The notes under the pieces: model-generated
What the model was told of the DNA's origin: nothing
Database searches by the model: none
The model's input: the letters and a program-made list of their open reading frames with translations, nothing else
Shown here: in pieces, positions 31,628 through 56,281 of the stretch
Numbering within the stretch: position 1 is the stretch's first letter
Layout of the letters: the number at the start of each line of letters is the position of its first letter
Position numbers and translations under genes: made by a program
Source: Candidatus Bathyarchaeota archaeon
Lineage (GTDB): Archaea; Thermoproteota; Bathyarchaeia; Bathyarchaeales; DTEX01
Direction: 5' to 3'
DNA length: 64,000 bases
Assembly: GCA_025059045.1 (NCBI GenBank)
Contig: JANXEA010000013.1
Coordinates: 97,896-161,895 of the forward strand

Positions 31628-33844
31628 GTGGCAAATATGTCTGAGGAAGTAGAATTAAAGAGTGGCTTAACACCGAAGGCGGTGGTTACCGGCGTAGTCC
31701 TTGTTGCTTTGCTTGCCGCTTGGAGCACACTCTTCACGTATACATATCCGATGAACACATACCTTCAGCCCTATCTGCCAGCCGACCGTGTGAACATGTC
31801 GATCTACTGGATGTTCTGGGCTGGAGCGCTCTTCACGTTCTTCTGCCCGCTGCTTGTCTTCGTTCTCCTTCCGGAGAAGATGAGGTTCACTCGGCAAGAG
31901 CTTTCGGTAATCTTCGCAATGGTTATCGTTGTTTATCCCTTGACCGTCAAGACGGGTAACATGATGGCACTTCCATCAATAGCATTATCAGGAGCGCCAT
32001 GGCTTGACGGAGATTATCCGGAAAGAAACTTCTGGATAATGCCGTGGCACTGTCCGGCATGGAAGAGACTTCCTGACGGAACATGGGAATACCAGTACGT
32101 TAATGGGGGCCCTGTAGGGAGACCGCTTAACGTAGCCGTACCAGTCAGGTGGGACTTATACTTCCCAGGTTACGTGTTCGGTTTCTTCGAATTAGGTCTA
32201 TTACTCATAATGGGGTTCTGTGTTGCAGCCCTCATCCGCAAGCAGTACATCGAGGTTGAAGCTCTGCCGTTCCCAAATGCTGCTGCAGCCACATGCCTAA
32301 TTAATGAGGCTACAACGCTGCCTGAGGGTAAAGCAGGCTTCTTAGGAACTAAACCTAAACTTCTAAGCAATAAGTGGCTATGGATCGGCTTCTTAGTCGC
32401 TCAAGGCCTTATGATCCCAGCGTGGCTTGGACTAATCTTGCCGCGCATGGGGATCAGCGCAACAGCATACCAGTTCTATGCAACATCGGCGAACCAGATC
32501 ATACCCTACATTCCAGTTAGGATAGTTTTCACGGCACCTTGGATCCTAGGCTTAGGTCTTCTCTTGCCACTTGACGTGCTCATAAGCCATCAGATCACAT
32601 GGATAGTATTCGTCGTGATAATAGCGAATCTTCAATGGATAGTCGGCTTTTATGGGCCTCCGCCAGCAACCGCGACAATGTTCTGGTACATCAGGCAAGT
32701 TGAACAAAACCTCCTCATAAGGGTCAGCCCAGGCGGTCAGGGCCTAAATGCATGGGCGGTCGGTATCCTCATAGTGGGAGCCATATACCCGATGTGGGTT
32801 CACAGAAGACATGTGAAGTCAGTGATAATGTCAATATTCAAGCCTCAGCCAGAGCTTGAGAGAGGCGACATAAAATACAGATGGTACTGGCTCGGGCTGA
32901 TACTCAGCTTCATAGGATATGTACTCTTGTTCGCGATACCTGAATACAGAGGATACAATATACGTCCATTCCTATGGATTACGGCCCTATTCCTGATATT
33001 CACATTGATAATGTGGCTAGGAGAGGCAAGGCTCAGAGCTGAGACAGGTGCAGTCGGAGGATTCGTCAGCTACGTCGTCCTATACTACTTCTCGCCGCGA
33101 TTCTGGGGGCCGAGAGCTCTGATGGCACAGTTGATGGGCTACCCTGACGTTGCAGGTAACGCCTCTGGACGCAACATGATATACTACTGGACGTTCCAGT
33201 CAACACATGGAATGTTCTGCAACCAGAATAGTCCAATTGGAATACCAATAGCGAATATGCTGGAAGGATTCAAAGTCGGACATGAAGCTAAGGTGAGACC
33301 AGTAGATCTGCTAATAGCGGCTATTATAGGCATCGTCGTAGCATACTGGGTCTGCAACCCATTATGGAGCTGGCTGCTTTGCACCGCTAACTGGCAGGGA
33401 CAGCAAGGATTGGCGGAAGAGCACATCCGACATGATTGGCACACGTCATACACTGCCTCTCGAGGGGCGCCCATAGGATGGAGAGGCTACTGGTACATGG
33501 GCTACGGAGACCCATGGCCAGACGTGACAAACATAACATACCAATACATCATCGGCGGTGCCGTCGGATTAATATGCTTCATACTTAGAGCGAAGTTCCC
33601 AGCCTTCATCTACAACCCATGGACAATCGTACTATGGGGAGTATGTAGAGGAAACATCCATGACGCATGGTTCTTCTTCCTCGTGGCATTGATCGTCAAA
33701 TTCATAGTCATTAGGGTGTGGGGAGTTACATTCTACGAGAAGAGCTTAGTCCCGCTCTCTGTAGGTCTAATAGTCGGCGGCGCGCTGATATTCCCAATAA
33801 ACGAGATCATCTACTGGTTCACTGGAAGAATCGTGGCAACATAA
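31628..33844 (+). CDS. large OPT-like membrane transporter (DUF6785/DUF6784 type)
   Basis: A 738-residue multi-spanning membrane protein with about a dozen or more hydrophobic segments. The segment ALIRKQYIEVEALPFPNAAAATCLI resembles the conserved loop of oligopeptide (OPT) transporters in which a proline-rich LPFP motif precedes a helix, given here in part. Near the C-terminus it has FKVGHEAKVRPVDLL. The substrate is unknown; peptides or metal chelates would be the family expectation. It opens the four-gene membrane locus ending at 44.8 kb. Start GTG 31628 (leaderless) or ATG 31637. Confidence 0.75.
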   Translation: MANMSEEVELKSGLTPKAVVTGVVLVALLAAWSTLFTYTYPMNTYLQPYLPADRVNMSIYWMFWAGALFTFFCPLLVFVLLPEKMRFTRQELSVIFAMVIVVYPLTVKTGNMMALPSIALSGAPWLDGDYPERNFWIMPWHCPAWKRLPDGTWEYQYVNGGPVGRPLNVAVPVRWDLYFPGYVFGFFELGLLLIMGFCVAALIRKQYIEVEALPFPNAAAATCLINEATTLPEGKAGFLGTKPKLLSNKWLWIGFLVAQGLMIPAWLGLILPRMGISATAYQFYATSANQIIPYIPVRIVFTAPWILGLGLLLPLDVLISHQITWIVFVVIIANLQWIVGFYGPPPATATMFWYIRQVEQNLLIRVSPGGQGLNAWAVGILIVGAIYPMWVHRRHVKSVIMSIFKPQPELERGDIKYRWYWLGLILSFIGYVLLFAIPEYRGYNIRPFLWITALFLIFTLIMWLGEARLRAETGAVGGFVSYVVLYYFSPRFWGPRALMAQLMGYPDVAGNASGRNMIYYWTFQSTHGMFCNQNSPIGIPIANMLEGFKVGHEAKVRPVDLLIAAIIGIVVAYWVCNPLWSWLLCTANWQGQQGLAEEHIRHDWHTSYTASRGAPIGWRGYWYMGYGDPWPDVTNITYQYIIGGAVGLICFILRAKFPAFIYNPWTIVLWGVCRGNIHDAWFFFLVALIVKFIVIRVWGVTFYEKSLVPLSVGLIVGGALIFPINEIIYWFTGRIVAT

Positions 33845-33888
33845 CCTCCATATCCCCCTTTTTATATGCTCACATTTTTGGGAGAAGC

Positions 33889-34539
33889 ATGAAAAAGACT
33901 CCGCTTCCGGTCAAGTTACTTAGAGACTATGTGAGAGATTGGATCGAAACTAGAGAAGGAATAGTTATCCATCCTAAGGATGAAATGTTGGAGGAGCTGC
34001 TGCTGAGGCCGCACTACGTCTTCTTTCTCGGTGAACAGATTGGATGGGAGTTCATAGCCATGGTGAGGATTCCATTTCGGGAAACTGACACAGAATCCAT
34101 AAAATTTTTAGAGCATCTAAGGAATGTGAGATGCAAGTTGACTTGGCATGGAATTGTCCGAAAAATTCCTGTCTTCCAAATGATAGAACCTACGGAACAT
34201 GATGAAGCGGGCTCCACCATCCCTTACCATGACCTTCCATCGTTTCTCAATCGTAGCGAGGAACTAAAAATGTCTGTAAAAGACGCAAAATTCAGTGAGA
34301 TGATGATCTCCCTCCTGGGCGGCACGAAGTTCCTAGGATCTGATGAGACTAGGCGTGTCGCGATGGGTCCATATTGGCTTGTAGAGGCTGTGAAAACTTT
34401 TATGTTTCCAATTGAAGGGCTCAGCCGTAAAAAATGCAGAAGAGACTTCATTAAGGCTTATGACGCGATCTCAGAAACCTCCAGAGCCTTAAATAACTAC
34501 TTCTTAGCAAAGTTGGCGGACAAGTTCTCTGAAGACTAA
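33889..34539 (+). CDS. cytoplasmic protein of unknown function in the OPT/FtsX locus
   Basis: A 216-residue soluble protein with no signal peptide or membrane segment. It begins MKKTPLPVKLLRDYVRDWI with GGGAG 5 bases before the ATG. The middle FFLGEQIGWEFIAMVRIPF and IVRKIPVFQMIEP look like beta strands, and the C-terminal third is helical. I do not recognise a family. Its position between the first transporter and the giant permease, with 9 bases to the next frame, suggests a cytosolic partner of that system. Confidence 0.65.
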   Translation: MKKTPLPVKLLRDYVRDWIETREGIVIHPKDEMLEELLLRPHYVFFLGEQIGWEFIAMVRIPFRETDTESIKFLEHLRNVRCKLTWHGIVRKIPVFQMIEPTEHDEAGSTIPYHDLPSFLNRSEELKMSVKDAKFSEMMISLLGGTKFLGSDETRRVAMGPYWLVEAVKTFMFPIEGLSRKKCRRDFIKAYDAISETSRALNNYFLAKLADKFSED

Positions 34540-34616
34540 AAAAGTGTTTGAGAAGAGTGGAAAGAAAGTCTTATATTTTAATGCGAATCGATAATGATTT
34601 GGAGAGTAAGAAGCGG

Positions 34617-37600
34617 ATGAAGGCGGGAAAGATTATTGCCTTAACACTTTTTCTCTCAATTCTTGTATTAACTGGCCTAAATGTAGTATGGTCGGTAAGC
34701 GGATATGAACCTAGAGTGATTCCGAAAATCAACTACCTACCCATAGTTGAGAGGGCGAACAGAGATTATGAAGAAGTTAAAACCATTGTTAAGACGTTAT
34801 CTTCCCTGGGAACTCGCTACACAACCTCTCAGGGATACATCATTGCCAGAGATTACATTCTAGACTGGTTTAATAAGTATCTAACCAATGTCACAGTTCA
34901 CAAATATAATTTGACAGTTCTGGTTGACTACGGAGGAAATTTGACTCTAGAAGATGGAACATTCTTCAAGGCATACCCATTGATGCCGAACGTAGTGGTT
35001 CCGGTAATCGCAGAGAATGTCTCAGGACCGTTGGTATACGTTGGAACCGGAGAGCTAAATGAGCTGGACGGCAATCCAATCCAAGGGTCAATTGTTATTA
35101 TGGACTTTAACAGCGGTCTAAATTGGATAGAAGTAGCCAAGCTAGGAGCAAAAGCTGTAATATTCATAGAACCCGCGACAACGAATCGAGAGCAGGCATT
35201 AGAGAAGAGGCTTGAAAGGCTTGCATTCAAGTTCCCCAGATTCTACATTAAAAGAGAAGACGCTTCTAAGATTCTGTTGGCTCTTGCGCAAAGCAAAAAG
35301 CTTGGAAAGCCGCTAATAGGGACTCTGAACGGGCTTACAAAATGGGAGATGAGAACCGCAGAGAACATAATAGGCTTTGTTAGGGGCACAAAATATCCGA
35401 ACAATTGGGTTGTAATAGGTGCGTACTACGACTCGCTTTCCGTCGTGCCAAGCATATCCCCAGGAGCATCGGAATCTGTAAGCATGGCCATCCTTTTGAC
35501 GCTTGCAAAGTATTACAGCGAAAAACCGCCAGACTACACAGTTATGTTCGTAGCATTTTCAGGCCATCACCAAGGGATATGGGGAGCAAGAGAATTTGTG
35601 GCTGATTACGTCTATGGACCAGTATATCCTAAGGATTCTCCGCATTATAGGGCGGAAAGCATCGCAAAATATGTGGTTGCAGGGTTCGGAATAAGCATAA
35701 TCCCGGACACTCCACTCCTTTATCCAACCCCAAGCGGAGGTTTCTACATACAACCAGAAGAAGAGAAGATGCCGGGAGATGGCATAAACTACATTATAGA
35801 CACTTATAGGCTGCTTATGGAGCAGACTGGGAAAGATTATGGTCTTGAACCGCATGGCACAGGAGGAAGTCAATCAATATCATTTGCCATCTCAGCAGCT
35901 GACACCTATCCCGTGCAGAGTCCAAATTATATGAGGTGGGTTGACATGGAGGCACTTCTTGCGCCTAACAGTCCAAGGTGCCCCGGATACTTATTTATGA
36001 CTTCAAGATGCTTTGATTGGTTCTACTATACGCCTACGGATACATACGAGGCCATAGAGCCTTTGCTTCCCAATGTCAAGGAGCAGATGGAACTTCTTTA
36101 TTCCTGGCTCCACACATTTCTACATACAGATTATCTTACTAAAATCCCTGCTAACAATCCGCAGCAGCACTGGGGCCTATACTGCGATATCGGGACAGAA
36201 GGGTTAGTCTCAAACCATCAGACATACATGAGAAACTACTTCCAAGCAGTGATGTATGATGAAACCACAGGTTGGTATGTCAATGTCGCGCCAAAAGAGA
36301 ACCAGCAGCTACTTTTAGTAGTTCATACGGCTAGTCATGGAACATATGAGGGTTTAATACTCTATAGGGATCGGATAGCCTTTGTAACCTTAGCAAACGA
36401 GTCAGGTGTTGCTGAGATCATCGGCGAGATTGGCAGCGAGCACTTAGATAGGTCTTGGCAGCACCACGAAATGTTCAACATGTATCTCTTAGATTCAAAG
36501 GGTAATGTTCTTATGGCAAGAGATCTCGGACAATACAATCTTCCACAAACAATATATTGGCATCTCACAGGGGCTGTATGTCGAGGTCAAAGCAACTTCA
36601 ACCTCAGGCGTGTTGTTCTATTTCCATGCGCGGCTTTCGTCCTCTTCGATTATATTGAGCCAGACTATCTAGACCTTTCATATCTATCCTTTGTCATGAG
36701 CGTCAGATACTTCATCGGCCACACACCGATCATCCACCATAATTTGCCGAGGGTCGAAGCCTCGGAGAGGCTCTATTATGACCTAGGTCCGAACATCGCT
36801 ATGGCATACGTGGAACCCAACGTGCCATTAGAATTTATTATATACTCCCCATACGCAGCCAACAGACCATACGCAATCTTCACAAACGCGACAAAGGATA
36901 ATCGTGAAGGTTACGGATACACCCTCAGGCAGGGTGAGCAATTCATAATAAGCATATACGATTACGCTAGGGACCTATTCTATATCAATGAAGAGAGGAT
37001 TATGAGGGTGGCCGAGCCGGCCAAAATATCTGGAATCTACACGGAACTGCATGCCAAGTCACGTATCCTTCTTGAAGAGATGAGAGCCGCCTTAAAGAGT
37101 TACAATTACAGTGTTGCGTATGTCAAGGCGGTTGAAGCTTGGAAGAATGAAATTGAAGCATATGCCTCGCTAAGGAGCACACTAGAGGACACAATCTTTA
37201 CTGTCCCATTCTTCTGCGCCCTGATAATACCGTTCGTATTCTTGGCGGAAAGATTATTCCTCCATTACTCCGGGTATAAGAGGTTGGGCGCAATTGTCGC
37301 CATCTATGCAGGGCTAGTAGCAATATTTTCTATAATGCATCCAGGTTTCACGATAGCGTCCTCAGCAATGATGGTTCTAGTTAGCTTTGCAATATTGGCT
37401 CTGGTAATACCTATCCTCTTCATAATAGGTAGCCAGACAAACACACTGTTGAACGCGATAAGACGAAGAGAGCTCGGGATGCACGTCGCGGAGATAGGGC
37501 GTATGTCCTTCGCAACCACAGCATTCTCGACTGGAATAGAAAACATGAGGAAGACAAGGTTCAGAACGGCTCTCACACTGATCTCAATCTTGATACTAAG

Positions 37601-39287
37601 CTTAGCATTAGTTCTGTTCACATCTGTCGCTGGCGTTCAGATGGTCAGGAAGACAGAGCAGTCCCCGAAGTATACTCCGCCATTCGAAGGAATAGTCGTC
37701 ATGAGAGAAAACTTCGGGGAGACCCTAGAGGGGTTCAGGTATGGCATTGGCATAAGAGCCATTCAATACCTCAAGGCTAAATATGGGTCAGAAGCCATAA
37801 TTGCCCCTAGAATCTGGTTTATAGCAACGCATCCAAGCCGAGTATCATGCGGTTTGATCGTATGCAGATTGCCCCAAGAGAAGGAGCCATCAGGCAAACC
37901 CACTCTAATCAGGGGCATAACCCTATTAACGCCTGAAGAAGCAAAGCTTACAGGTGTGGCCCAAGCCTTAGTCGGAAACAACAGCGACTGGTTTAATGAG
38001 CAGGACCTCTATGCATGTATTCTACCCGATATTATTGCTGAACGTTTAGGAATCCCGAAAGACCTTTCCCCAGAGAGGGGCAAGTACAAGATAAACCTAT
38101 GTGGCTTGGTACTCAGTGTAGTCGGAATAGTTGAAGACGGCTTCTTCGATGCGATAGTTGACTTAACTGGCTTCGCCCTGACACCAATCGATAGAAGGGT
38201 GTCAGTTTCGCCGCCAGCACAGCTGTTTACAAGCGAGACGATAATATTGCCGGCGAAGCTAGCTCCTTACTTGAGACAGCATTGGAGGAACTCTGAGATA
38301 GTTGAGGGGGTTATGACGAGCAGCGTTGCACTCAAGTTTCTGAACAGGAGCGCAAATATAGATAAGGCTGGCGAAATCTTCAGCATGTTCAGAGGCTCGA
38401 CATCGCAGGTCTGGGTGTACCAAGACAAGAATCTATACACGCTGACGGTATCCGTTTCTGTTAAGAGTACAGGTATGGCTGAGCAGAGCATCGCGCTTGT
38501 CCTCGTAGGACTAACAATATTCAACCTTATGCTGGGAAGCGTACATGAGAGGAAAAGAGACCTATTTATCTATAGCTCCGTTGGTCTAAGCCCCATTCAC
38601 ATATCAATAATGTTCATAGCGGAGGCGGCCGTATACGCGGTTGTCGGAAGCCTCATCGGTTATGTGGTGGCGATGACTGTTGGACGGGCTGCTGTTACGT
38701 TGGGTCTCCAATTGGGCTTCATGAACTACGCTTCAGGATGGGTGGCAGGAGCAATAGGAGTCTCACTCCTTGCAACAATCTTGTCAACCTTGTATCCAAC
38801 AATATCCGCTGCGAGAATGATCACACCCTCATTGGAAAGGAGATGGAGGATACCTACGAAGCCTGTTGGAGACGAATGGTCAATACCGCTTCCCTTCTTC
38901 CCAGCGGATGAGAGAGAAGCGGCGGGCATACTAAACTTCATTAAAGAATACTTTGAGCATCATATGAGCCCAGTCGCGCCAGAGTTCTCTGTCTCATCCC
39001 TAAATATAATGGAAACCCGCGTTGAAGGTTTCCCAGCACTAATCCTTGATGCTGAAACGAGGATAGTACCATATGAGCAAGGGATAAGACAGAGGACAAA
39101 GATACAGCTGATCAACAGATCGGGGAAATGGAACATCGTAATACATCTGACGAGGCTTACGGGAACTTCGAAGGCATGGGCTGACCATAATAGAGCGTTC
39201 CTCACAAAGGTTAGAGAACAATTCCTATTGTGGAGAGGTCTTCCGCCAGAAGAAAGGCGGAAGTACTTGAAAGAGGAAAAGAAATAG
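34617..39287 (+). CDS. giant FtsX-type permease with degenerate M28-peptidase ectodomain
   Basis: A 1556-residue protein. After a signal-anchor (about residues 5-27) comes an exported M28-like region with a PA-like insert (about 120-235) and the pseudo-catalytic core (about 245-485). Recognisable M28 metal positions are changed: GAHYDS is GAYYDS (Y270), the ND of PGAND is SE (E286), the Glu-Glu of the catalytic motif is H317-H318, and YHTP is YYTP (Y471). A beta-rich region follows, then membrane segments near 880-960, an FtsX core, the last three helices near 1300-1420, and a cytosolic tail. Start uncertain; TTG 34548 and ATG 34581 are in frame. Confidence 0.8.
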   Translation: MKAGKIIALTLFLSILVLTGLNVVWSVSGYEPRVIPKINYLPIVERANRDYEEVKTIVKTLSSLGTRYTTSQGYIIARDYILDWFNKYLTNVTVHKYNLTVLVDYGGNLTLEDGTFFKAYPLMPNVVVPVIAENVSGPLVYVGTGELNELDGNPIQGSIVIMDFNSGLNWIEVAKLGAKAVIFIEPATTNREQALEKRLERLAFKFPRFYIKREDASKILLALAQSKKLGKPLIGTLNGLTKWEMRTAENIIGFVRGTKYPNNWVVIGAYYDSLSVVPSISPGASESVSMAILLTLAKYYSEKPPDYTVMFVAFSGHHQGIWGAREFVADYVYGPVYPKDSPHYRAESIAKYVVAGFGISIIPDTPLLYPTPSGGFYIQPEEEKMPGDGINYIIDTYRLLMEQTGKDYGLEPHGTGGSQSISFAISAADTYPVQSPNYMRWVDMEALLAPNSPRCPGYLFMTSRCFDWFYYTPTDTYEAIEPLLPNVKEQMELLYSWLHTFLHTDYLTKIPANNPQQHWGLYCDIGTEGLVSNHQTYMRNYFQAVMYDETTGWYVNVAPKENQQLLLVVHTASHGTYEGLILYRDRIAFVTLANESGVAEIIGEIGSEHLDRSWQHHEMFNMYLLDSKGNVLMARDLGQYNLPQTIYWHLTGAVCRGQSNFNLRRVVLFPCAAFVLFDYIEPDYLDLSYLSFVMSVRYFIGHTPIIHHNLPRVEASERLYYDLGPNIAMAYVEPNVPLEFIIYSPYAANRPYAIFTNATKDNREGYGYTLRQGEQFIISIYDYARDLFYINEERIMRVAEPAKISGIYTELHAKSRILLEEMRAALKSYNYSVAYVKAVEAWKNEIEAYASLRSTLEDTIFTVPFFCALIIPFVFLAERLFLHYSGYKRLGAIVAIYAGLVAIFSIMHPGFTIASSAMMVLVSFAILALVIPILFIIGSQTNTLLNAIRRRELGMHVAEIGRMSFATTAFSTGIENMRKTRFRTALTLISILILSLALVLFTSVAGVQMVRKTEQSPKYTPPFEGIVVMRENFGETLEGFRYGIGIRAIQYLKAKYGSEAIIAPRIWFIATHPSRVSCGLIVCRLPQEKEPSGKPTLIRGITLLTPEEAKLTGVAQALVGNNSDWFNEQDLYACILPDIIAERLGIPKDLSPERGKYKINLCGLVLSVVGIVEDGFFDAIVDLTGFALTPIDRRVSVSPPAQLFTSETIILPAKLAPYLRQHWRNSEIVEGVMTSSVALKFLNRSANIDKAGEIFSMFRGSTSQVWVYQDKNLYTLTVSVSVKSTGMAEQSIALVLVGLTIFNLMLGSVHERKRDLFIYSSVGLSPIHISIMFIAEAAVYAVVGSLIGYVVAMTVGRAAVTLGLQLGFMNYASGWVAGAIGVSLLATILSTLYPTISAARMITPSLERRWRIPTKPVGDEWSIPLPFFPADEREAAGILNFIKEYFEHHMSPVAPEFSVSSLNIMETRVEGFPALILDAETRIVPYEQGIRQRTKIQLINRSGKWNIVIHLTRLTGTSKAWADHNRAFLTKVREQFLLWRGLPPEERRKYLKEEKK

Positions 39288-39297
39288 GTGAGGTGGG

Positions 39298-41202
39298 ATG
39301 GAAAAATCTGGCAGCTCCGAAAAACTCCTGAGAAGCGGGCTTACACCAGTCACAGTGATAGCTCTGCTCTACGCAATCTTCGTATTTCAACCAGCCATGG
39401 TCTGGCTGTCGCTGACTACGGGTGGAGGGCTAGGCGCCATAAGCTGGATAACAGTAATAATATTTGCGGAGATAATGAGGCTCTCTGGAAAACCCATAAG
39501 CAAACAAGAGGCAACAATCATATTCCTCCTCGCGGCCGTTGGGGGAAGCATGGCTGGAACACCCTTCTTCATAAACATGATTTACAGGGCCTATTATGCC
39601 CAGTCGCCCATCGCTAAACTATTCGGAATTGCGGATGAGATACCGAGATGGTGGGCTTCAACAAGTATTGAGGCGTGGCAGAGGAGAACTTTTCTACACC
39701 CAAGCTGGACGCAGCCAATCATCATCGGGATAATCATGCTAATTCTGGGGGAAGCCGTAAACCTGAGCATGGGCCTCATCACCCGAGAGATATATATCAG
39801 ATCGATGAAGCTACCCTTCCCAATGCAGGAGGTTTCAGCAGTGGGAATCGCCACTATCGTCGAGCCGGAACAGGAGAAGAGAACAATCTTCCTGATCGGA
39901 AGCCTATTCGGAATTATATATGGATTCATACTTTATGGTCCACCCATACTGAATCAGCTACTCACAGGCGTCCCCAGCAGCGCACCTATACCATGGGCTG
40001 ACATGAACGAAATCATCCAGACAGGCATACCTGGAGCAAGCTTCGGAATAGCGACAAGCTTACTGACCCTTATAGGCGGATTTATATTGCCGTTCAGCAC
40101 GGTTGTGAGCATTCTTGCAGGATCAGTCGCATTGTACATGATTGCCAATCCGCTGCTCGTCAGCCTCCGTCTAACAGGGTTCGCGGAAGAATACTTCTAT
40201 GGTATGAGCATAGCTGACATCATGTATAGGACGAACCTTCATGCGTGGGCGGGACCTTTAGTTGGCGTTGCCTTGGGAGCAGCTGTGATCCCGCTGCTAC
40301 AAGCCAGAAAGGCAATAGCCGCGGGTTTCAGATCGCTGTCGAAGATAGAGAAAGGCGGTCTCAGTGTCACATCTCTACCAGTTCTACTTGCAATATGGCT
40401 AGGCTCCTCAGTCGCCTCGGTCGCCATAACCTACATGCTAATACCAGCAGGGATAATCTATCTCCTAGTAATGCTCGGATTCTCGGTTGGCTGGTCATTC
40501 ATTTGGACGATGATCAACGCGTATTCCCTAGGTGTAACCGGCCTCCAGATAGGAGAGCCCCGGCAGGTCATACCAATATTTAAGTACTCATATATCTCGA
40601 CCGGGTTCTATCAGGGCAAAGACATATGGTTCATGGATCCGATTATAGGCACAGGGGGAGCCGGATGGTGCGGAACATTTAAGGTCTGCGAATTAAACGA
40701 CACGGATCCTATAAGCCTAATAAAAGTCTTCCTATTAGTGCTGCCGATAGTTACGGTAATGGGCTTCGTTTACGTTCAGAACTTCTGGTCAATAGCGCCT
40801 ATCCCCTCCGTGATGTATCAATATACTGCCATATACTGGCCGATATCGGCAACGAACGACTCACTCTGGATAGCAGGCAGAATGTTCACCGCATTTGATC
40901 CCATATGGGTTGCTGGAGCATTCGCGTTGACTCTTGCAGGCGGAATCATAATTGCGGTGCTGAAAATACCCGCAAGCATAATAGGGCTGGCTGTCGGAGT
41001 AAACACTGCAATACCCTATGCAGTAACAATATTCCTCGGAGGAATAATAGGAAGATTTATCGAGTGGAGAATTGGAAGGGACTGGTGGAGACGAAACAGA
41101 ATGGTTCTAAGTGCAGGCCTCTCACTCGGAGAATCCACATCAATCATAATCGTAAGCGTAATAGGGATGATCACGCGGTCCCTCTGGGTAATGCCATATT
41201 AG
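39298..41202 (+). CDS. second OPT-like membrane transporter
   Basis: A 634-residue multi-spanning protein homologous to the transporter at 31.6 kb: ITREIYIRSMKLPFPMQE corresponds to the LPFP loop there, and GTFKVCELNDTDPISLIKV to the later FKV segment. It has many glycine-rich helices such as LVGVALGAAVIPLL. GAGGTG lies directly before the ATG, 10 bases after the giant permease stop, so the two are translationally coupled. Substrate unknown. The pairing of two different OPT-like proteins suggests a heteromeric or dual-substrate transporter. Confidence 0.75.
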   Translation: MEKSGSSEKLLRSGLTPVTVIALLYAIFVFQPAMVWLSLTTGGGLGAISWITVIIFAEIMRLSGKPISKQEATIIFLLAAVGGSMAGTPFFINMIYRAYYAQSPIAKLFGIADEIPRWWASTSIEAWQRRTFLHPSWTQPIIIGIIMLILGEAVNLSMGLITREIYIRSMKLPFPMQEVSAVGIATIVEPEQEKRTIFLIGSLFGIIYGFILYGPPILNQLLTGVPSSAPIPWADMNEIIQTGIPGASFGIATSLLTLIGGFILPFSTVVSILAGSVALYMIANPLLVSLRLTGFAEEYFYGMSIADIMYRTNLHAWAGPLVGVALGAAVIPLLQARKAIAAGFRSLSKIEKGGLSVTSLPVLLAIWLGSSVASVAITYMLIPAGIIYLLVMLGFSVGWSFIWTMINAYSLGVTGLQIGEPRQVIPIFKYSYISTGFYQGKDIWFMDPIIGTGGAGWCGTFKVCELNDTDPISLIKVFLLVLPIVTVMGFVYVQNFWSIAPIPSVMYQYTAIYWPISATNDSLWIAGRMFTAFDPIWVAGAFALTLAGGIIIAVLKIPASIIGLAVGVNTAIPYAVTIFLGGIIGRFIEWRIGRDWWRRNRMVLSAGLSLGESTSIIIVSVIGMITRSLWVMPY

Positions 41203-41249
41203 AATAGACTTCTCCCATCATGCATGACGCGGTCCTAATCCCTTGGCCA

Positions 41250-41636
41250 TTAGAAATCCTCCTCTTTTTCCTCCCCCTGTAAAGAAGAGTAGATGAGATA
41301 GGCTAAGACGATGAGATCAAGCAGGTAGATGAGAAGTAGGTTGAGAAAAACGTCTAAGCCGTAGATAGAGATTGCCTTTCCAAAATCGACTAAGATATTA
41401 ATTATGATGGCGAAGGCGGCTATGACACGTCCAATCGGCCATGAAAGAAATATGATTATGCCTGAGACAACATAGATTATGCATATTGACAATGGAATAA
41501 GCGGGTCGAAAGGAGGGCGGAAGAAGACTCCAAGATCAAAGTTTACCATATACAGCTGGATGGTGACCCTGAACAATCCAAATAGCAGCATGAAAAGCCC
41601 CGAAAGGACTACCCCTAAAGATAATTCTCTAGCCAT
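41250..41636 (-). CDS. small four-helix membrane protein
   Basis: A protein of about 128 residues with four hydrophobic segments (VVLSGLFMLLFGLF, ICIIYVVSGIIIFLSW, VIAAFAIIINILV and LLLIYLLDLIVLAYLIY) and an acidic tail EEKEEDF. It is on the opposite strand to the flanking membrane genes. The start may be the ATG at 41636 or the TTG at 41687, which would add 17 residues. No family is recognised. Confidence 0.6.
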   Translation of the reverse strand: MARELSLGVVLSGLFMLLFGLFRVTIQLYMVNFDLGVFFRPPFDPLIPLSICIIYVVSGIIIFLSWPIGRVIAAFAIIINILVDFGKAISIYGLDVFLNLLLIYLLDLIVLAYLIYSSLQGEEKEEDF

Positions 41637-41802
41637 TATAACCAGCCCGGCAACCTGAAAGATTTTACATAAAACTTTATTTAACAATTATGCAAAGGCT
41701 ATTCTCTCCATTACTAATCCGTAACCAACGTCAATATTTATATCAAAATTAAAATTTTGGGAACACTTAAATATGGAGTAACGAAAAAAGATATGAAAAG
41801 AT

Positions 41803-44800
41803 ATGTCGCGCGGACAGATTACGCCGGTACTGCTCGCCGCCCTGATGTTCGCAACCCTGCGAATATATGTCTGCGAAGCTCAGATCGAACCTATCATATA
41901 TGGAAGGGTGAGGGATGCTGTTACCGGTCAGCCAATTATTGGAGCGACAGTAATCATTTGGAATCTGAATCGCAATATGAGAGAGGTTTACCAAACCAGC
42001 GTTAATGGAGAATACGTGATATCAGGTTCAATCCTATTATGGAATGATCAGTACCTGGTCTATGCGTTTCGTGGGAACCTTACAGATGGAAGATTGGATT
42101 ACGTTCCTGGAATGTATGAATTCAAGCTTGCCTACGGCGAAGTTTCAAAGAATGTTTCAATGCAGCTGCTGCCAGGCGCATCTATAACAATAGATGGAAG
42201 CTTCTACTCGCCTGAATCTTCATCTCTTGGAGAACGATATTTAGTAACAGTAAATCCTGAACTAGGCTACCTCCCCCAAACAGAGACGAGATATCTGAGA
42301 GAGTATGGAGACTCGTCCTATGCAAGGCTACTCGGCATCAGCCGGCGAGTAGTTGTCGTACCAGCTAATATACCCATAAAATTGGTGGTTGAGACAGCAT
42401 TTCTTATTGAAGAGTATAGGATGGATTATGGAGTTGTATATAAGACCTACAGCTTCCGAACTGAGAGGTTGACGCTTGACGATTTTGGAAGACCATTCAA
42501 CCTCACACAGGCCCAGCAAATCTCCCTCAATCTATCAGAGTACTCGCTGAGACATGGCATGAATATGCTTAACAACAGAATATCCGAGGTCTCCTCAAGC
42601 CTGGACGAGGCTCAGAGAATAGGGTTTGTAGTCTTCGAGGATAGGTCGAAACTTGCTGAAGCTGAATCTAGGCTCACCGAGGCTGGAAAATATCTTGAAA
42701 GGAAAAACTATACAGAATGCTGGGTAGTGCTCAGCGATATCCTAACAAGGACGAAGCTCATCACATTAAATCTAAATAACATGAAAACTGTCAGTATAAC
42801 AAGCGCGGTCTACATGCCAGCAATCCTTGCAATATTCAGCGTTATCCTAGCCTTCTTCTTCTTTGAGAACGAGAAGAGGAAGCTTATCTCAAGCATCATG
42901 ATCTATACCGCCTTCCTAGGCATTTTCTACATCATATACCCTGGGGCGCATCTCATAATGGATCTGAATAGGATATTATTCATAGAATCCGCTGTAATCT
43001 CAGTTGCGGCGACATTGCTTGTCGTCTTCGGGGTTCCAAAGATATGGAAGGAAAGGCAGATTGAAGGTGAAGTGTCACTGAAGAGCGCAGTCTCAATCCT
43101 CTTCTCGATGGGGAAGAGGCAGATAAGACGAAAGAAACTTAGAGGATTCTTCACGATACTCTCCACCGTCATCCTCGTTCTGGCATTCGTTTCTCTAACA
43201 TCCTTCGGAACAGTCTTCGACATAGTTGCAGAGAACATAAACGTTAACCCAGGTGCAAATGGGATACTTGTAAAACGGCTTCAGAATGCGACTTCAATAT
43301 TATCAAGCCCGCTTCCCATCAGTGACATGGAGATAATATCTGGGCTCTATAGCGCAATGACGCTCTCACCTAGATTTGAGAGTTCCCCAAGCATGAACCC
43401 CATAGCTCAAATCATCAACCCCGCAAATAACAAGGATTTACCAATATATGGGATTGAGGGGGTGTCGCTTGCAGATGATCCTGTGATGAAAATTAGAACA
43501 GGCCTAATAAGCATGGGAAGACCCTTCAATGAGAGCGTGGCCGACGAAATAATTGTCAGCAGCACGGCAGCCTCGATCCTGGGACTAGGATTAAACCAGA
43601 CAGTCTACCTAAGCATAGCAGGTGTATCGGGCTTTATTGGCAACTTCACAGTTGTGGGCATATTCTCTGACTCTGTATATGCAGGTATCATTGACCTTGA
43701 CGGGCAATCCTTCGGGCCGATAAGGCTTCTTCCCGACGGAACCCCAAGAGTTTGCAACGCTACCGAGGTTATACTCATGCATTGGAAGACGGCTAACATG
43801 CTCCAGGAGAAGATTAATGAAATCGCGGGAAAGGGAGCGCCTCAAATTGCAGTGATTCATGAGATAATCTTCCAGCCATCTGCCACAGTTAAAATTCAGG
43901 ATATGATAAAAACCCTAATATACTCCTTCCATTACGATGTCTTCATCTCATCGAATAATATTATAACACATTATTTCATAGGGTCCTTTTACGAGATAAA
44001 AGGAGCCGCTGAGCTAATAATCCCTCTAGCGATGGTAATCCTCAATATAGGCACGGTTATGCTTAACGCTGTGTATGAGAGGCGTGGGGAGCTTAGAGTA
44101 CTCTCAATGCTAGGTCTCAATCCGGCTCATATAAGGTTCATGTTCTTGGCGGAAGCCATAATAGTAGGCATGGTTGGAGGTGGAGTTGGATACCTCTTCG
44201 GGCTGGGCTTCTATCGGATCGCAACCTTCTTCGGGCAAACATTAATGGTGAGGGAGAAGCTAGAATGGTGGTGGAGCGCGATAGGCTTCGCGGTTGCAAT
44301 GATTGCATCCGTCATCTCAGCGATTAGACCAGCAATCCTTGCTGTTAGGCTATATACGCCATCAATGGTCCGCAAATTCAAGCTCAGCGAGCAGGAGCAG
44401 AGAACACGCAGAGAGGAGATATTCAAGGTTTATCAGGCCAAGGAGGTAAGCATGCCCGTTAAGATCCTCCCAAGCGAGCTGCCATTCTTCTGCGGCCTCG
44501 TACTCAATAGGCTTGAAGAGATGAAGACGGGGGCAATGGAGAGGGTTGAGGAGGTTAAGGAGATACCGGAAATAGAGAATGTGAAGGGTGAACTTGTAAA
44601 GGCGATTAACTTCAACTACTACTTTACTATCTCGGGAACAAGAAGAGGCACAAATAACGAGCTGATATGCATCAAGAGTCCCGGGGAAGATTATTATCGT
44701 GTAAGGCTAAAATCGAAACCAGCCGCTCCAGGCATGCCTGAAGACTCAATAGACAGAACAATAGATTTCGTCCACTCCCTCTGTATTGAGTGGAGCAAGA

Positions 44801-44826
44801 ACAAGAAGAGGATAATCGGCGGCTAA
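41803..44826 (+). CDS. giant FtsX-type permease with carboxypeptidase-regulatory-like N-terminus
   Basis: A 1007-residue protein. A signal peptide (residues 1-26) is followed by IYGRVRDAVTGQPIIGATVII, the signature of a carboxypeptidase-regulatory-like (transthyretin-type) beta domain, then a beta-rich and coiled exported region with SLDEAQRIGFVV and AESRLTEAGKYLE. Three membrane helices occur near 335-415. The FtsX core runs from about 445 to 870 with YERRGELRVLSMLGLNPAH, and a cytosolic tail follows. The layout matches the 34.6 kb permease although the ectodomains differ. No ATPase partner is adjacent. A TATA box ATTTATATC lies at 41736-41744. Confidence 0.8.
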   Translation: MSRGQITPVLLAALMFATLRIYVCEAQIEPIIYGRVRDAVTGQPIIGATVIIWNLNRNMREVYQTSVNGEYVISGSILLWNDQYLVYAFRGNLTDGRLDYVPGMYEFKLAYGEVSKNVSMQLLPGASITIDGSFYSPESSSLGERYLVTVNPELGYLPQTETRYLREYGDSSYARLLGISRRVVVVPANIPIKLVVETAFLIEEYRMDYGVVYKTYSFRTERLTLDDFGRPFNLTQAQQISLNLSEYSLRHGMNMLNNRISEVSSSLDEAQRIGFVVFEDRSKLAEAESRLTEAGKYLERKNYTECWVVLSDILTRTKLITLNLNNMKTVSITSAVYMPAILAIFSVILAFFFFENEKRKLISSIMIYTAFLGIFYIIYPGAHLIMDLNRILFIESAVISVAATLLVVFGVPKIWKERQIEGEVSLKSAVSILFSMGKRQIRRKKLRGFFTILSTVILVLAFVSLTSFGTVFDIVAENINVNPGANGILVKRLQNATSILSSPLPISDMEIISGLYSAMTLSPRFESSPSMNPIAQIINPANNKDLPIYGIEGVSLADDPVMKIRTGLISMGRPFNESVADEIIVSSTAASILGLGLNQTVYLSIAGVSGFIGNFTVVGIFSDSVYAGIIDLDGQSFGPIRLLPDGTPRVCNATEVILMHWKTANMLQEKINEIAGKGAPQIAVIHEIIFQPSATVKIQDMIKTLIYSFHYDVFISSNNIITHYFIGSFYEIKGAAELIIPLAMVILNIGTVMLNAVYERRGELRVLSMLGLNPAHIRFMFLAEAIIVGMVGGGVGYLFGLGFYRIATFFGQTLMVREKLEWWWSAIGFAVAMIASVISAIRPAILAVRLYTPSMVRKFKLSEQEQRTRREEIFKVYQAKEVSMPVKILPSELPFFCGLVLNRLEEMKTGAMERVEEVKEIPEIENVKGELVKAINFNYYFTISGTRRGTNNELICIKSPGEDYYRVRLKSKPAAPGMPEDSIDRTIDFVHSLCIEWSKNKKRIIGG

Positions 44827-44975: not shown

Positions 44976-46190
44976 TCAGAGTTTAGGGGCGGAAGGGTTG
45001 CCGGGACCGAAATGCTTCAAGATCACAAGGTTCTCCACTCTACTCTGATTGGAGATCTCAACACCCTCTTTAGCAGCTTCAACAGTGACGAAAAATTCGT
45101 CACTGGTAAGTTCTCCGTAACGAATCATGGTAGGTGATTCAGCATGAAATCCGCCGATTCTCCCATGCCCCTGAACAACTATCAAGCCGTAGGCTGCCTC
45201 GTCAATGATCTTCACGTTCCGACCCGGATATATGATGAGCTCTTTCGCGCTGAAATCCTCAGATCCATAGATTACCCACCGTTCTATATAACCATCATCT
45301 AAAGCGTCCTGCCCCCCACTCAAATTTCTCGGGATCAAATGATGATGCCTCTTAAACTCCGGATCTAAATTCGCATCCCAATCGATCATGTCTACCAGAT
45401 AGTCTAAGTCGCCTTGGAGGTCTGGAGGGACGTCCTTAACCAGTAGTCTCCGCGGAACAGGCTTGCCCTCGAGCATAGACTGGTACATGGCGAAGACGTC
45501 TGAAGCCTTCTGCACCTCATATGTAACAAGTGTTCCAGGGGCGTGAAGTATCCCTGCCTGCACAAGCCAGCCTGTTCCTGGAACGAGCCTATAGGCTTGG
45601 GAATACGCTAGAATGCCATTGTCCCCATTCTCCCACCTCTCAAGGCAACGTTTAATATCATCCCTACTGGTTCCCGGAGCCAGCCCGAAAAATGTATAGG
45701 GGAATTTTCCCTCAACCATGTTCAATTGGGGCGGAAAATAGTAGGCCTCGGGCTTCGGCTCCCGGCCAACAATATGGGCATGTTCCTCCATCTGGTGTAG
45801 GTGAAGCGGGATTGGGCAGGCGTTATCGAAGAACTTGGTTAGAACCGTCCAACCGCCATACCTATGCATTACTTGTCTGCCTAGAATCCTGTCACCAAAC
45901 TCGGCGATCAGATCGCTTAAGAGAACCTTCTCAATTCTCCCCTCATCCTCTATCACGGCGTAGCTTAAACCTTCATCTTCAGGCGCGCCTGGGTTGTCCG
46001 CCCTCACGGTTGAAGCCAGCCACCTCTCATCTATGCCGCCTCTCTCGACGCCTAGAGCATAAAGGTCATGGGGTGAAAGCCTAATTCTTCCACCTGGAAC
46101 TAGAAAGTCTCTTGGAACCCATGCCGGGGCCAACCTTATAATCCCATGATCCACAGCGTCTGATATGCTTCTCCTCTTCAACCTAGACAC
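44976..46190 (-). CDS. cupin / type I phosphomannose-isomerase-like protein
   Basis: A 404-residue bicupin-like protein. IPLHLHQMEEHAHIVGREPKPEAYYFP carries the metal-binding His-x-His and Glu of phosphomannose isomerases in shortened form, and ILHAPGTLVTYEVQKASDVF is a second cupin strand with a metal histidine. A final cupin domain (GLIVVQGHGRIGGFHAE) closes the protein. Sugar-phosphate isomerisation is the best guess, but the sequence differs enough from ManA that the substrate is open. A class V aminotransferase gene lies just upstream on the same strand. Confidence 0.72.
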   Translation of the reverse strand: MSRLKRRSISDAVDHGIIRLAPAWVPRDFLVPGGRIRLSPHDLYALGVERGGIDERWLASTVRADNPGAPEDEGLSYAVIEDEGRIEKVLLSDLIAEFGDRILGRQVMHRYGGWTVLTKFFDNACPIPLHLHQMEEHAHIVGREPKPEAYYFPPQLNMVEGKFPYTFFGLAPGTSRDDIKRCLERWENGDNGILAYSQAYRLVPGTGWLVQAGILHAPGTLVTYEVQKASDVFAMYQSMLEGKPVPRRLLVKDVPPDLQGDLDYLVDMIDWDANLDPEFKRHHHLIPRNLSGGQDALDDGYIERWVIYGSEDFSAKELIIYPGRNVKIIDEAAYGLIVVQGHGRIGGFHAESPTMIRYGELTSDEFFVTVEAAKEGVEISNQSRVENLVILKHFGPGNPSAPKL

Positions 46191-46273
46191 TCCGGCTCAA
46201 AGCATACTGAGGATTGGCGGATCATCAATAAAAATTATTTGATAATTGATCGGGATTCTTCTTAATCAAGCAG

Positions 46274-47440
46274 CTATTGTCCGGCGTGGAACCCCTCCTT
46301 CTTCAAGGCCTCCCTCAGAGCCCTCAACAGTATCTGTACAGTCTCCTCATTCGCGTTTACACCCATCAAGCCTATCCGCCAAATCTTGCCTTTAAGTTTC
46401 CCAAGGCCTCCGCTTATCGTTATGTTGAACTCCTCGCGGAGAGTTCTGCGGACATTTTCGTCGGAAACCCCCTTTGGCACCTTAACCGACGTTATCACTG
46501 GACACCTATACCTCTCATCAGCGTGGAACTCAAGTCCAAGATCCTCAAGCCCCTCAACCAGGAGGCTCCAGCTCCTCCTATGCCGCTCCCACCTAACCTC
46601 CAGTCCCTCCTCATAGAGGAGCCTCAAAGCCTCTCTTAGAGCATAAACTAGGAGAATCGGCGCGGTGTGATGATACGCCCTATTATTCTTAACCCAGTAT
46701 TCCTCGATGGTTGAGAGGTCAAGGTACCAGCTCTGAACCTTACTCTCCCTACCCCTAATCCTCTCCATCACCAGTTCATTAGCGGTGATGGGGGCCAGTC
46801 CGGGAGGGCAACCCAAACACTTCTGAGAGGCGGCATAGCAAATGTCTATCCCGAACCCGTCTACGTCGAGCTCGCATCCGCCTAGCGACGTCACAGCGTC
46901 GACGAGTAGAAGCGCACCGTACTCATGTGCAACCTTTGAGATCTCCTTTATCGGTTGGAGAACCCCGGTTGAAGTCTCAGCGTGAACGATAGTGACAACT
47001 TTCGCATCGGACTCGGACAGTGCAGATTCAACAGCCTCTTTACTCACAGCCTCCCCCCAATCCGCCTCGACCAGGATAGGGTTGCCGCCGCATCTCCTCA
47101 CCATCTCCGCCATCCTCTCGCCGAAGAACCCGTTCACGCATACAACCACATCGTCGCCGCGTTGGACAGTGTTGCATATAGCGCTCTCCATTCCAGCTGA
47201 ACCCGTCCCGGAGATCGGAAAGGTAATATAGTTTCTAGTGCGGAAGCAGTACCTAAGCAATTCAACAGTCTCGTCCATCACCCTCATGAAGAATGGATCA
47301 AGATGATCAACGATCGGCAAGGACAAAGCCTTCAGGACACAGGGGTCAACATTGCTCGGCCCAGCGCCCAAGAGAAGCCTGCTAGGCGGCCTCAGCTCAC
47401 CATAAGTCCTCATGGCGAAATCGGATACCTCAGGCAACAT
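46274..47440 (-). CDS. class V PLP aminotransferase (alanine-glyoxylate / serine-pyruvate type)
   Basis: A 388-residue fold-type I enzyme. LLGAGPSNVDPCVLKAL, ISGTGSAGMESAICN, HAETSTGVLQPI and the PLP lysine in YAASQKCLGCPPGLAPI are diagnostic for the serine-pyruvate/alanine-glyoxylate aminotransferase family. The C-terminal half has WRIGLMG for carboxylate binding. It would make or consume glycine, serine or glyoxylate. The unusual base composition of its region was not measured. The start ATG is at 47440. Confidence 0.93.
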   Translation of the reverse strand: MLPEVSDFAMRTYGELRPPSRLLLGAGPSNVDPCVLKALSLPIVDHLDPFFMRVMDETVELLRYCFRTRNYITFPISGTGSAGMESAICNTVQRGDDVVVCVNGFFGERMAEMVRRCGGNPILVEADWGEAVSKEAVESALSESDAKVVTIVHAETSTGVLQPIKEISKVAHEYGALLLVDAVTSLGGCELDVDGFGIDICYAASQKCLGCPPGLAPITANELVMERIRGRESKVQSWYLDLSTIEEYWVKNNRAYHHTAPILLVYALREALRLLYEEGLEVRWERHRRSWSLLVEGLEDLGLEFHADERYRCPVITSVKVPKGVSDENVRRTLREEFNITISGGLGKLKGKIWRIGLMGVNANEETVQILLRALREALKKEGFHAGQ

Positions 47441-49594: not shown

Positions 49595-49938
49595 CTCATC
49601 AAGACAATAGTTGAGAAGAGTGGAACCGCACTGCTAACAGACGAAGAGTGGGAAGACCTCAACCCATAATGGAAAAGCTGAAGGGAAAACTGGAAGTCTA
49701 TTAGAAGTGCCAATCTCCTTCTCGAATACAACCTTGAAGGTGAGCATTGGGAAAATACCTGGTAAACAAGATGTATGGTTACCTCCTTATCGAGGCACGT
49801 AACTTCACGAATATCCATGCTTCCCAGTTATGCCTTGGACATAGCATATTGCTATGAGAATGCCGATGATAGGCAGGTGCGTGGCGAAACCTATAATTGC
49901 GTGTACTGTTCAACAATGGCTGATGTGGAGCGTTGGTT
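49595..49938. other. 344 bases with no recognisable gene, between integrase relict and ABC exporter
   Basis: Short open stretches in several frames are interrupted by stops. One plus-strand frame reads KTIVEKSGTALLTDEEWEDL before stops, which looks like further gene debris, but I could not assign it. Confidence 0.4.
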
Positions 49939-50685
49939 ATGGATAAGTTCGCCGTGGTAATGGAGAATGTTGTCAAGCGTTTTGAAGATGTTGTCGCTGT
50001 GGATGGTGTAAGTCTTAAGGTTTTTCGGGGTGAACTTTTCGGCTTACTCGGCCCTAATGGGGCTGGAAAAACCACGACTGTGAATATGCTTTGCGGCCTT
50101 TTAAAGCCTACAAGCGGCTTCGTTTCGGTGGGCGGCTATGACGTGCAGAGGGAAAATGCCGAAGTTAAAGAGCTTATAGGCGTTTGCCCTCAAGAGACTG
50201 CCGTTTACCCATATTTGACTGGTGTGGAGAATGTGGAGCTTTTTGGAAACCTATACGCCTTAGACAAGGAAATGCTTAGAAGTAGACGGGAGATGCTTCT
50301 TGAAAGATTAGGGTTAATTCAAGACGTCCATAGAAAGGTTGAAAAATACAGCGGCGGAATGAAAAGGCGGCTGAGCATTATTCTGGCTTTAATCCACAAT
50401 CCCCAAATCATATTCTTAGACGAACCCACCGTGGGCATGGACCCCCAATCTCGCCGCGCCGTCTGGGATTTCATGCGGGAACTGAAAAGGGAAGGCAAAA
50501 CCATTTTCCTAACAACTCACTACATGGAGGAGGCGGAATCCCTCTGCGACCGTGTAGGCATAATTGACCGTGGAAGGCTTATAGCCCTTGATACGCCGAA
50601 AAACCTGATTTCCAAGCACGATGTTGGCAACCTCGAAGAAGTTTTCATAAAATTGACTGGGCGAAGGATAAGGGAGGAAATCTAA
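49939..50685 (+). CDS. ABC-2 exporter ATPase (DrrA/CcmA type)
   Basis: A 248-residue ABC ATPase. Walker A is GPNGAGKTTT, the signature is YSGGMKRRLS, Walker B is IIFLDEPTVGMD and the switch histidine is in TTHYMEE. KFAVVMENVVKRFEDVVAVDG is the usual start. I choose the ATG at 49939 because GGAG lies 8 bases upstream; a TTG at 49933 is also in frame. The stop overlaps the start of the permease gene (TAATG). The pair sits next to the decayed integrases and looks richer in G and C than its surroundings, so it may have come with the element. Confidence 0.93.
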   Translation: MDKFAVVMENVVKRFEDVVAVDGVSLKVFRGELFGLLGPNGAGKTTTVNMLCGLLKPTSGFVSVGGYDVQRENAEVKELIGVCPQETAVYPYLTGVENVELFGNLYALDKEMLRSRREMLLERLGLIQDVHRKVEKYSGGMKRRLSIILALIHNPQIIFLDEPTVGMDPQSRRAVWDFMRELKREGKTIFLTTHYMEEAESLCDRVGIIDRGRLIALDTPKNLISKHDVGNLEEVFIKLTGRRIREEI

Positions 50686-52060: not shown

Positions 52061-52097
52061 CTTTATAAATCATTCTTGATATTGCTAATGATATCAA
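52061..52097 (+). promoter_or_regulatory. PadR gene promoter with overlapping palindrome
   Basis: CTTTATAAAT (52061-52070) is a good TATA box. It is followed by TTGATAT-TGCTAATG-ATATCAA (52076-52097), a 7+8+7 palindrome that covers the expected start site near 52088-52096. This arrangement, TATA box then palindrome then a PadR gene, suggests autorepression. Confidence 0.6.
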
Positions 52098-52111
52098 ATA
52101 AGATTTCAGTT

Positions 52112-52675
52112 GTGTCTTGGAGGCGTATCTGGTTGTTTGAGGTTTCAAGACCTTCAAGGCGTTGGTTAAGATACGTGGCCAGTGTTCCAAGAGGTTTCTT
52201 GCGATATCAAGTTCTAAGGTTGTTGAAGGAGAAGCCGATGTCGGGTTCCGAGATAATGGAGGAGATTGAGAGGCAGACTGAGGGAAGATGGAAACCTGGT
52301 CCAGGTTCAGTCTACCCGCTTCTTGCATGGCTCCAAGATAAAGGCTACACGAGAAAATTGCATGAAGAAGGGGATGGAATCAAGAGGTATATACTCACTG
52401 AGAAGGGTGAAGAATTCCTGAGGGAACAGATGAAGCTTAGAGAAATTTTGCAGGAAAGGATGGATTTTTTGGCGCCATTGATATTCGTAGGATTCTGGCC
52501 TGAACACCTGCAGGAGCTCAGAGAACCTGTTAGAAGACTTATTCGATCACTACTCGTTCTCAGGCGGACGCTGCAAGAAAACCCTGATAGACAATCAGTA
52601 CAGGAGATCAAGGATTTCCTGAACGTGGCATCCGAAGAGATTGAGAGATTAAGTAAGAAGGTCGGTCAAAAATAG
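52112..52675 (+). CDS. PadR-family transcriptional regulator
   Basis: A 187-residue winged-helix repressor. YVASVPRGFLRYQVLRLLKE is followed by PMSGSEIMEEIERQT, GRWKPGPGSVYPLLAWLQDKG and RYILTEKGEEFL, the PadR signature, then a C-terminal helical dimerisation domain with FLAPLIFVGFWPEHL. I place the start at GTG 52112, giving MSWRRIWLFEVSRPSRRW, because the palindrome over the presumed start site ends at 52097; in-frame TTG 52076 and ATG 52088 lie inside it. It probably controls the small membrane protein and the permease operon downstream. Confidence 0.88.
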   Translation: MSWRRIWLFEVSRPSRRWLRYVASVPRGFLRYQVLRLLKEKPMSGSEIMEEIERQTEGRWKPGPGSVYPLLAWLQDKGYTRKLHEEGDGIKRYILTEKGEEFLREQMKLREILQERMDFLAPLIFVGFWPEHLQELREPVRRLIRSLLVLRRTLQENPDRQSVQEIKDFLNVASEEIERLSKKVGQK

Positions 52676-52701
52676 CCGTAGCATAGGAGCATAGAGACAA
52701 C

Positions 52702-53193: not shown

Positions 53194-53339
53194 AGAAACA
53201 TGTACCAGCCTGTTGCTCTTAGACGCATCCCGCATGGAGATGATGAAAATGTCTCGGGGAACCTGTGAATTTGCTAATGAGAGGTTAATGTTGGGGGCGG
53301 GAACAGCAGGGAAAATTTCCTATGGATAATCAAATCCGA

Positions 53340-53376
53340 TTTTGCATTTATTTAATCCTGTAAAACACATGCAAAA
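53340..53376. promoter_or_regulatory. inverted repeat flanking the TATA element before the FtsX/MacB-like gene
   Basis: TTTTGCAT (53340-53347) and ATGCAAAA (53369-53376) are perfect inverted copies with 21 bases between them; the spacer contains TTATTTAAT, a TATA-like element. A regulator bound to both arms would cover the core promoter of the permease operon. Sequence evidence only. Confidence 0.5.
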
Positions 53377-53432
53377 CAGCGTGAAGATGGAAAATTAACA
53401 TTTCGCTGCATAAATCAGGTGGCAAATGGCCG

Positions 53433-56279: not shown

Positions 56280-56281
56280 AA

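Follow-up and report, generated by a model that had tools for sequence, protein, structure and literature searches.

The question raised by the locus at positions 31628–44826 of the window, the 64,000-nucleotide stretch of DNA analysed here, is whether its large membrane protein genes encode parts of a single machine and, if so, what that machine would do. The window is part of contig 13 in an archaeal genome of 1.42 Mb and 98 % completeness. A sequence-only reading had proposed that four genes, alternating between OPT-like transporters and large FtsX-type permeases, form one envelope system, perhaps coupling recognition of an exported peptide or glycan to OPT-type uptake. An ORF reading of the locus recovered all six genes that it had placed there, and the notion that OPT-like and giant FtsX genes belong to one envelope system is borne out by their co-occurrence, adjacency and co-divergence, as described below. 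The alternating four-gene arrangement did not survive: the conserved unit consists of three genes, those for the transporters OPT-A and OPT-B and for a giant M28-FtsX protein.

The genes of the locus

OPT-A (31628–33844, plus strand) is a membrane transporter of the OPT superfamily with 738 aa and about 14 hydrophobic segments, matching Pfam DUF6785 (E 2e-24, 86 bits), and OPT-B (39298–41202, plus strand) is an OPT-family membrane transporter with 634 aa and about 13 such segments. Against the Pfam OPT profile, for which the cut-off is 25.8 bits, OPT-B scores above the limit (35.3 bits) and OPT-A just under it (24.6 bits); in a profile–profile comparison the two proteins are homologous along their length (E 2.5e-45). 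Searches of PDB sequences with the OPT-A and OPT-B profiles returned nothing useful, so the fold of OPT-A was searched instead. Its AlphaFold model (pTM 0.84, pLDDT 72) gave significant matches (E below 0.001) in the PDB only to chains of barley YS1 (E 2e-8, TM 0.55/0.65), the next match not being significant, and OPT-A is accordingly modelled, and predicted, to adopt the OPT fold.

The M28-FtsX giant (34548–39287, plus strand; 1579 aa from a TTG codon, the start being uncertain) is encoded 10 bases upstream of OPT-B, a spacing that had been read correctly from the sequence. An N-terminal transmembrane segment is followed by an exterior region of about 830 aa, made up of a PA domain, a pseudo-M28 domain and a beta-rich part, then by an FtsX-type permease and a cytoplasmic tail of about 150 aa; Pfam matches are to M28 (E 1e-8) and to the FtsX C-terminal domain (E 1e-9). 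The ectodomain spans roughly residues 48 to 905; its model (pTM 0.87, pLDDT 83) comprises the PA and M28 domain, the beta-rich region and a helical stalk, and its nearest structures are M28 aminopeptidases and the transferrin receptor. The PA and M28 fold is matched to 2ek8 in a profile search of the PDB (E 6e-35) and by Foldseek (E 2e-23), the low TM scores over the whole query being due to the extra domains of the giant. The catalytic and metal-binding set of M28 enzymes (H-x-D, D, E-E) is complete in none of 50 relatives of the giant: the E-E positions hold mostly H and W/F/N/H, and a single Asp is invariant. With these active-site residues lost, an active exported peptidase was ruled out: all 50 relatives have a dead site, and the ectodomain is a pseudopeptidase, which suggests a binding role. 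The Glu-Arg pair of the cytoplasmic coupling motif in the FtsX part (E1334-R1335) shows conservation of at least 90 %, suggesting that an ATPase still docks on the giant.

The remaining genes are less constant. A small soluble accessory protein (33889–34539, plus strand; 216 aa from ATG) has no Pfam match, and its weak relatives (E 3e-10 to 6e-4) are encoded within the module loci C6, L082, L141/L178 and L159 or next to them. The four-TM protein on the minus strand (41250–41687; 145 aa, four hydrophobic segments) is a locus-specific accessory; relatives were found in no locus but the orthologous one (L073/L173), where they lie between OPT-A and OPT-B. FtsXB (41803–44826, plus strand; 1007 aa) is an FtsX permease with a CarboxypepD_reg-like exported domain; it matches the Pfam FtsX C-terminal domain (E 5e-11) and CarboxypepD_reg, and weakly MacB_PCD. 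FtsXB adjoins the triplet of the window, one on contig 2 and that of the orthologous locus, and may thus be an accessory of the triplet in the lineage of the window, but its family is a separate and wider one, outside the conserved core: it is widespread in the class, in other families, without OPT genes, which rules out the alternating four-gene machine. Several of the FtsXB loci without OPT genes have an ABC ATPase and a small FtsX nearby. An FtsX giant with a dedicated ATPase and no OPT gene, the pattern that the sequence-only reading had named as counting against its own proposal, was therefore found for FtsXB alone and not for the giant of the triplet.

Just downstream of FtsXB, a 404-aa protein (44976–46190) adjoins a class V aminotransferase, the pair occupying 44976–47440 on the minus strand. 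The 404-aa protein has no Pfam match and bears a weak resemblance to a cupin-type mannosephosphate isomerase (E 0.17).

Conservation of the OPT-A, giant and OPT-B triplet

Complete sets of OPT-A, OPT-B and the M28-FtsX giant occur six times in the source genome and always together, at one site each in the window and on contigs 5, 6 and 7 and at two sites on contig 2. The six triplets are contiguous except for a small intervening gene in two of them, in the order A-giant-B or A-B-giant, and their members have diverged considerably (identities of about 25–30 % for the giant, 17–23 % for OPT-A and about 25–34 % for OPT-B). A 499-aa fragment of an FtsX giant at the end of contig 26 is probably a further member cut off by the contig boundary. 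Other genomes of the family contain the triplet with the same partners in shuffled order.

A survey of archaeal genomes for co-occurrence had been suggested as a check, and across the phylum homologues of the triplet proved to be neighbours in nearly all loci read rather than solitary genes. Among 397 genomes, OPT-B was found in 48, the giant in 47 and both in 46, so that three genomes had only one of them and 348 had neither; at the level of genera, 28 of 29 were common to the two genes. Fisher tests on this co-occurrence give tiny values that ignore phylogeny. Most of 40 stretches taken across the phylum hold all three genes, some on divergent strands. A named scan extended the distribution to loci of Bathyarchaeota, Brockarchaeota, Thermofilales, Calditenuaceae and Alkanophagales among the archaea and of Armatimonadota, Latescibacterota and Poribacteria among the bacteria. 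Where such a locus had room on both sides of the giant (n=48), an OPT gene was present in 42 cases and both OPT genes in 30. The distance matrices of OPT-A, OPT-B and the giant agree closely over 38 triplets (Mantel r 0.80–0.84, with no value above 0.27 among 999 permutations), an agreement to which common species history contributes and which also includes paralogues within genomes.

Five of the six giants without an OPT neighbour come from one lineage, the Calditenuaceae or near relatives, in which the OPT pair is sited apart from the giant and adjoins an FtsXB-like protein; this arrangement is possibly a split version of the system. At the loci of this group (L230, L232–L235 and L239), the giant without OPT genes is always followed by genes for a 339-aa membrane protein and a 296-aa protein. 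A Poribacteria MAG (L217) encodes a giant of 2499 aa followed by two tandem OPT-B genes.

The presence of the same triplet six times in one genome and in dozens of others argues for a conserved system and not for chance; with the six paralogous copies and the phylum surveys to hand, a chance neighbourhood was ruled out. OPT-A, the giant and OPT-B almost certainly constitute one conserved system.

The ATPase and the accessory proteins

FtsX-type permeases raise the matter of an ATPase, and the observation that no ABC ATPase is encoded within 31628–44826 was confirmed. The two ATPases of the window (49933–50685 and 56267–57178) adjoin other permeases. One such permease system, at 52076–57178, lies outside the OPT/FtsX system; its 948-aa FtsX-type permease has two FtsX stretches and is preceded by a gene for a PadR-type regulator and followed by an ABC ATPase of its own. 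None of the six triplet loci of the source genome contains an ATPase. The claim that none is encoded thus holds locally but not more widely, since a LolD-type ATPase and a small FtsX protein adjoin the module in other lineages and have unlinked orthologues in the source genome.

At loci of the Staphylothermus and Chthonomonadia types, the LolD-type ATPase and the small FtsX are encoded beside the module, as are two further proteins, one PqqD-like and one of about 300 aa. In Armatimonadota, the giant and OPT-B are followed by the ~300-aa protein, the PqqD-like protein, the small FtsX and mostly the LolD-type ATPase; giant, OPT-B and small FtsX occur together in five loci, and an intact ATPase ORF follows directly in three of the four loci listed. 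The Staphylothermus marinus-type cluster holds a glycogen synthase, the PqqD-like and 300-aa proteins, a 612-aa exported protein and the giant, together with OPT-A, OPT-B, a TM-anchored GH57, two ABC ATPases and the small FtsX. This gene order fits S. marinus F1, being consistent with the naming in its genome paper of Smar_1393 as glycogen synthase and of Smar_1400 alone as an OPT peptide transporter (PMC2678158).

The same set can be traced in the source genome. Single-copy orthologues of the small FtsX (E 1e-39) and of the ATPase (E 2e-111) lie on contig 8, and the other two components, also single-copy in this genome, lie in the window itself: a conserved accessory protein of 344 aa (11868–12902, plus strand; no Pfam family), which matches the ~300-aa protein of the Armatimonadota operon (E 2e-11), and a PqqD-like accessory protein of 162 aa (12940–13428, minus strand; Pfam PqqD, E 9e-10), which matches its counterpart there (E 9e-20). 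For the ~300-aa protein, no PDB relative of note was found. Both follow the module through the phylum survey: of the 49 module genomes, 42 have the PqqD-like protein (above 65 bits) and 34 the ~300-aa protein, and each of the two occurs in 4 of the 348 other genomes. In a 200-genome sample the small FtsX was present in 24 of 26 module genomes as against 7 of 174 others. Three genomes of the survey (G149, G156 and G356) have the PqqD-like and ~300-aa proteins with OPT-B and giant undetected, two of them (G149 and G156) also with the small FtsX; these may use another giant FtsX. We infer that one motor set serves several substrate-specific triplets in trans.

Candidate substrates, mechanism and known systems

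Carbohydrate-active enzymes are often encoded beside the triplets, in the source genome at three of the five other triplet loci. Membrane-anchored pectate lyases occur twice among the neighbours there, along with a GH51-type arabinofuranosidase, a GH42 and a BNR protein; in relatives the neighbours include GH106, GH38, GH127-like, GH130, GH10, GH57, GH53, GH4, PL22 and GH30 enzymes, and PL1 is a further family found beside triplets overall. Few of the neighbours are peptidases. Among 60 control genes at least four positions from the triplets there was one GH2-type match among the matches listed, at most 25 families per list, and, since the near genes were partly picked by eye and the control count applies to those matches, the enrichment is to be taken as moderate and indicative. 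A whole-genome search for PL1 in 21 genomes of the family yielded five genes. Three of the five adjoin the module, and of these three, two had been known before PL1 was chosen for the search. No universal neighbour gene that would name the substrate was found; the largest common neighbour cluster, spanning eight loci, has a GFO/IDH/MocA oxidoreductase as its longest protein. At two triplets of the source genome (L034 on contig 5 and L040 on contig 2), the adjacent genes encode secreted, membrane-anchored proteins that unite pectate lyase, PKD and PQQ-type beta-propeller domains.

Of the two kinds of ligand originally proposed, peptide or glycan, the neighbourhood thus points to glycans and not to peptides, and on balance it seems likely that the system imports glycans. 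As a counterpoint, the triplet of the window is flanked by the 404-aa protein and the aminotransferase and by no carbohydrate enzyme, and the Calditenuaceae giant stands apart from its OPT genes. An orthologue of the window's triplet (45/41/57 % identity) adjoins a GH106 rhamnosidase, from which a rhamnose-containing oligosaccharide may be guessed as the substrate here.

We hypothesize, with somewhat better than even confidence, that the triplet supplies the substrate specificity, as the core of a conserved envelope machine of several components that is most likely an ATP-assisted importer of oligosaccharides. The two full-length OPT paralogues would probably pair as the translocation pathway, and the dead PA/M28 domain of the giant, with its beta-rich domain, would be exposed on the outside, acting as receptor for glycans or as gatekeeper. 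The FtsX part of the giant would probably pair with the small FtsX and the LolD-type ATPase, with ATP hydrolysis driving the ectodomain by mechanotransmission of the MacB/Lol type; the moved ectodomain would then hand the captured oligosaccharide to the OPT pair, or gate it. The PqqD-like and ~300-aa proteins would be cytoplasmic accessories, and the six triplets of the source genome would share one set of these two accessories, the small FtsX and the ATPase, encoded away from all the triplets. The single physical complex, the pairing of OPT-A with OPT-B, the shared ATPase acting in trans, the direction of transport and the glycan substrate are the elements of this model that we infer.

An alternative is that the OPT pair imports peptides or glycopeptides, the M28 fold being a non-catalytic peptide receptor. 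Peptides are the classical cargo of the OPT family, the ectodomain descends from aminopeptidases and a PqqD-like partner, of the RiPP-recognition type, is compatible with a peptide ligand. S. marinus, moreover, is described as a peptide fermenter, which counts against glycan import, and its OPT gene is annotated as a peptide transporter (PMC2678158). Nevertheless, the loss of the peptidase residues in all 50 relatives and the largely carbohydrate-active neighbourhood, poor in peptidases, make this account fairly unlikely. Less probable again is a giant working in the manner of FtsEX, ATP-driven movement of its ectodomain activating or positioning surface glycan hydrolases or remodelling S-layer glycan while the OPT pair only recovers the products. 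The FtsX fold, the linked LolD-type ATPase and small FtsX, and the neighbouring genes for a TM-anchored GH57, for pectate lyases and for PQQ-propeller proteins would all suit such a role, but the two OPT genes are linked as tightly as the giant itself, and the neighbouring enzyme differs by locus, with no fixed hydrolase partner. Uptake of metal chelates or siderophore-like compounds, as in the yellow-stripe branch of OPT transporters, is very improbable: of solved structures the barley Fe-chelate transporter YS1 comes nearest to the OPT-A model, yet as the sole OPT structure matched it informs on fold and not on substrate, metal genes are not prominent in the neighbourhoods read, and six paralogues beside different glycan enzymes better fit varied substrates. 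That the triplet genes are mere neighbours with independent functions, as the differences in gene order and strand between loci and the unlinked giant and OPT pair of Calditenuaceae might suggest, is scarcely credible given co-occurrence in 46 of 49 genomes, adjacency despite many rearrangements and matching divergence.

Open-access papers on DUF6785, on OPT transporters with FtsX and on archaeal glycan uptake yielded no description of the system, which is apparently undescribed, its parts being of known kinds and their combination apparently new. With slightly less than even confidence, we would regard oligosaccharide import by an OPT pair and an ATP-driven FtsX receptor of dead M28 type, with several cores sharing one ATPase set, as a new class of archaeal and bacterial importer. 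The oligosaccharide importer, if real, would give uncultured Bathyarchaeia, Brockarchaeota and Thermofilales, as well as Armatimonadota, a dedicated machine for the uptake of polysaccharide products. The known OPT transporters move peptides, metal chelates or compounds like them and not sugars, which counts against sugar import; if it holds, these would be the first for sugars, and an ABC motor would be coupled to a separate transporter in a new way. Metabolic reconstructions from these genomes may then be misled by the labels 'oligopeptide transporter' and 'FtsX permease'. Part of the module occurs in the cultured S. marinus, which makes the system testable.

In having several paralogous uptake loci, each beside different glycoside hydrolases, the system resembles the SusC/SusD polysaccharide utilization loci and the CUT ABC importers; the shared ATPase would follow the logic of MsmK in CUT sugar importers. 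It differs in that the translocator is of the OPT type; the core components included nothing resembling SusC/SusD or of CUT type, and no SusC/SusD homologue appeared among the Pfam-scanned neighbours. With the pseudo-M28 receptors (transferrin receptor, nicastrin and nicalin) the giant has in common a dead PA/M28-type domain outside a membrane protein, but it is prokaryotic, is fused to an ABC-type permease and shows no sign of a protease complex. The FtsX domain and coupling motif, and in some lineages the linked LolD-type ATPase and small FtsX, recall the MacB, LolCDE and FtsEX permeases, from which the giant is set apart by its ~830-aa ectodomain of M28 descent, by an ATPase that is unlinked in the source genome and by its constant partnership with OPT proteins. 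Finally, OPT-B by its Pfam match and OPT-A by its predicted YS1 fold are both full-length paralogues within the oligopeptide transporter/yellow stripe-like family, yet here the pairing of the two paralogues is obligate and goes with a giant FtsX permease, in a neighbourhood of glycan enzymes.
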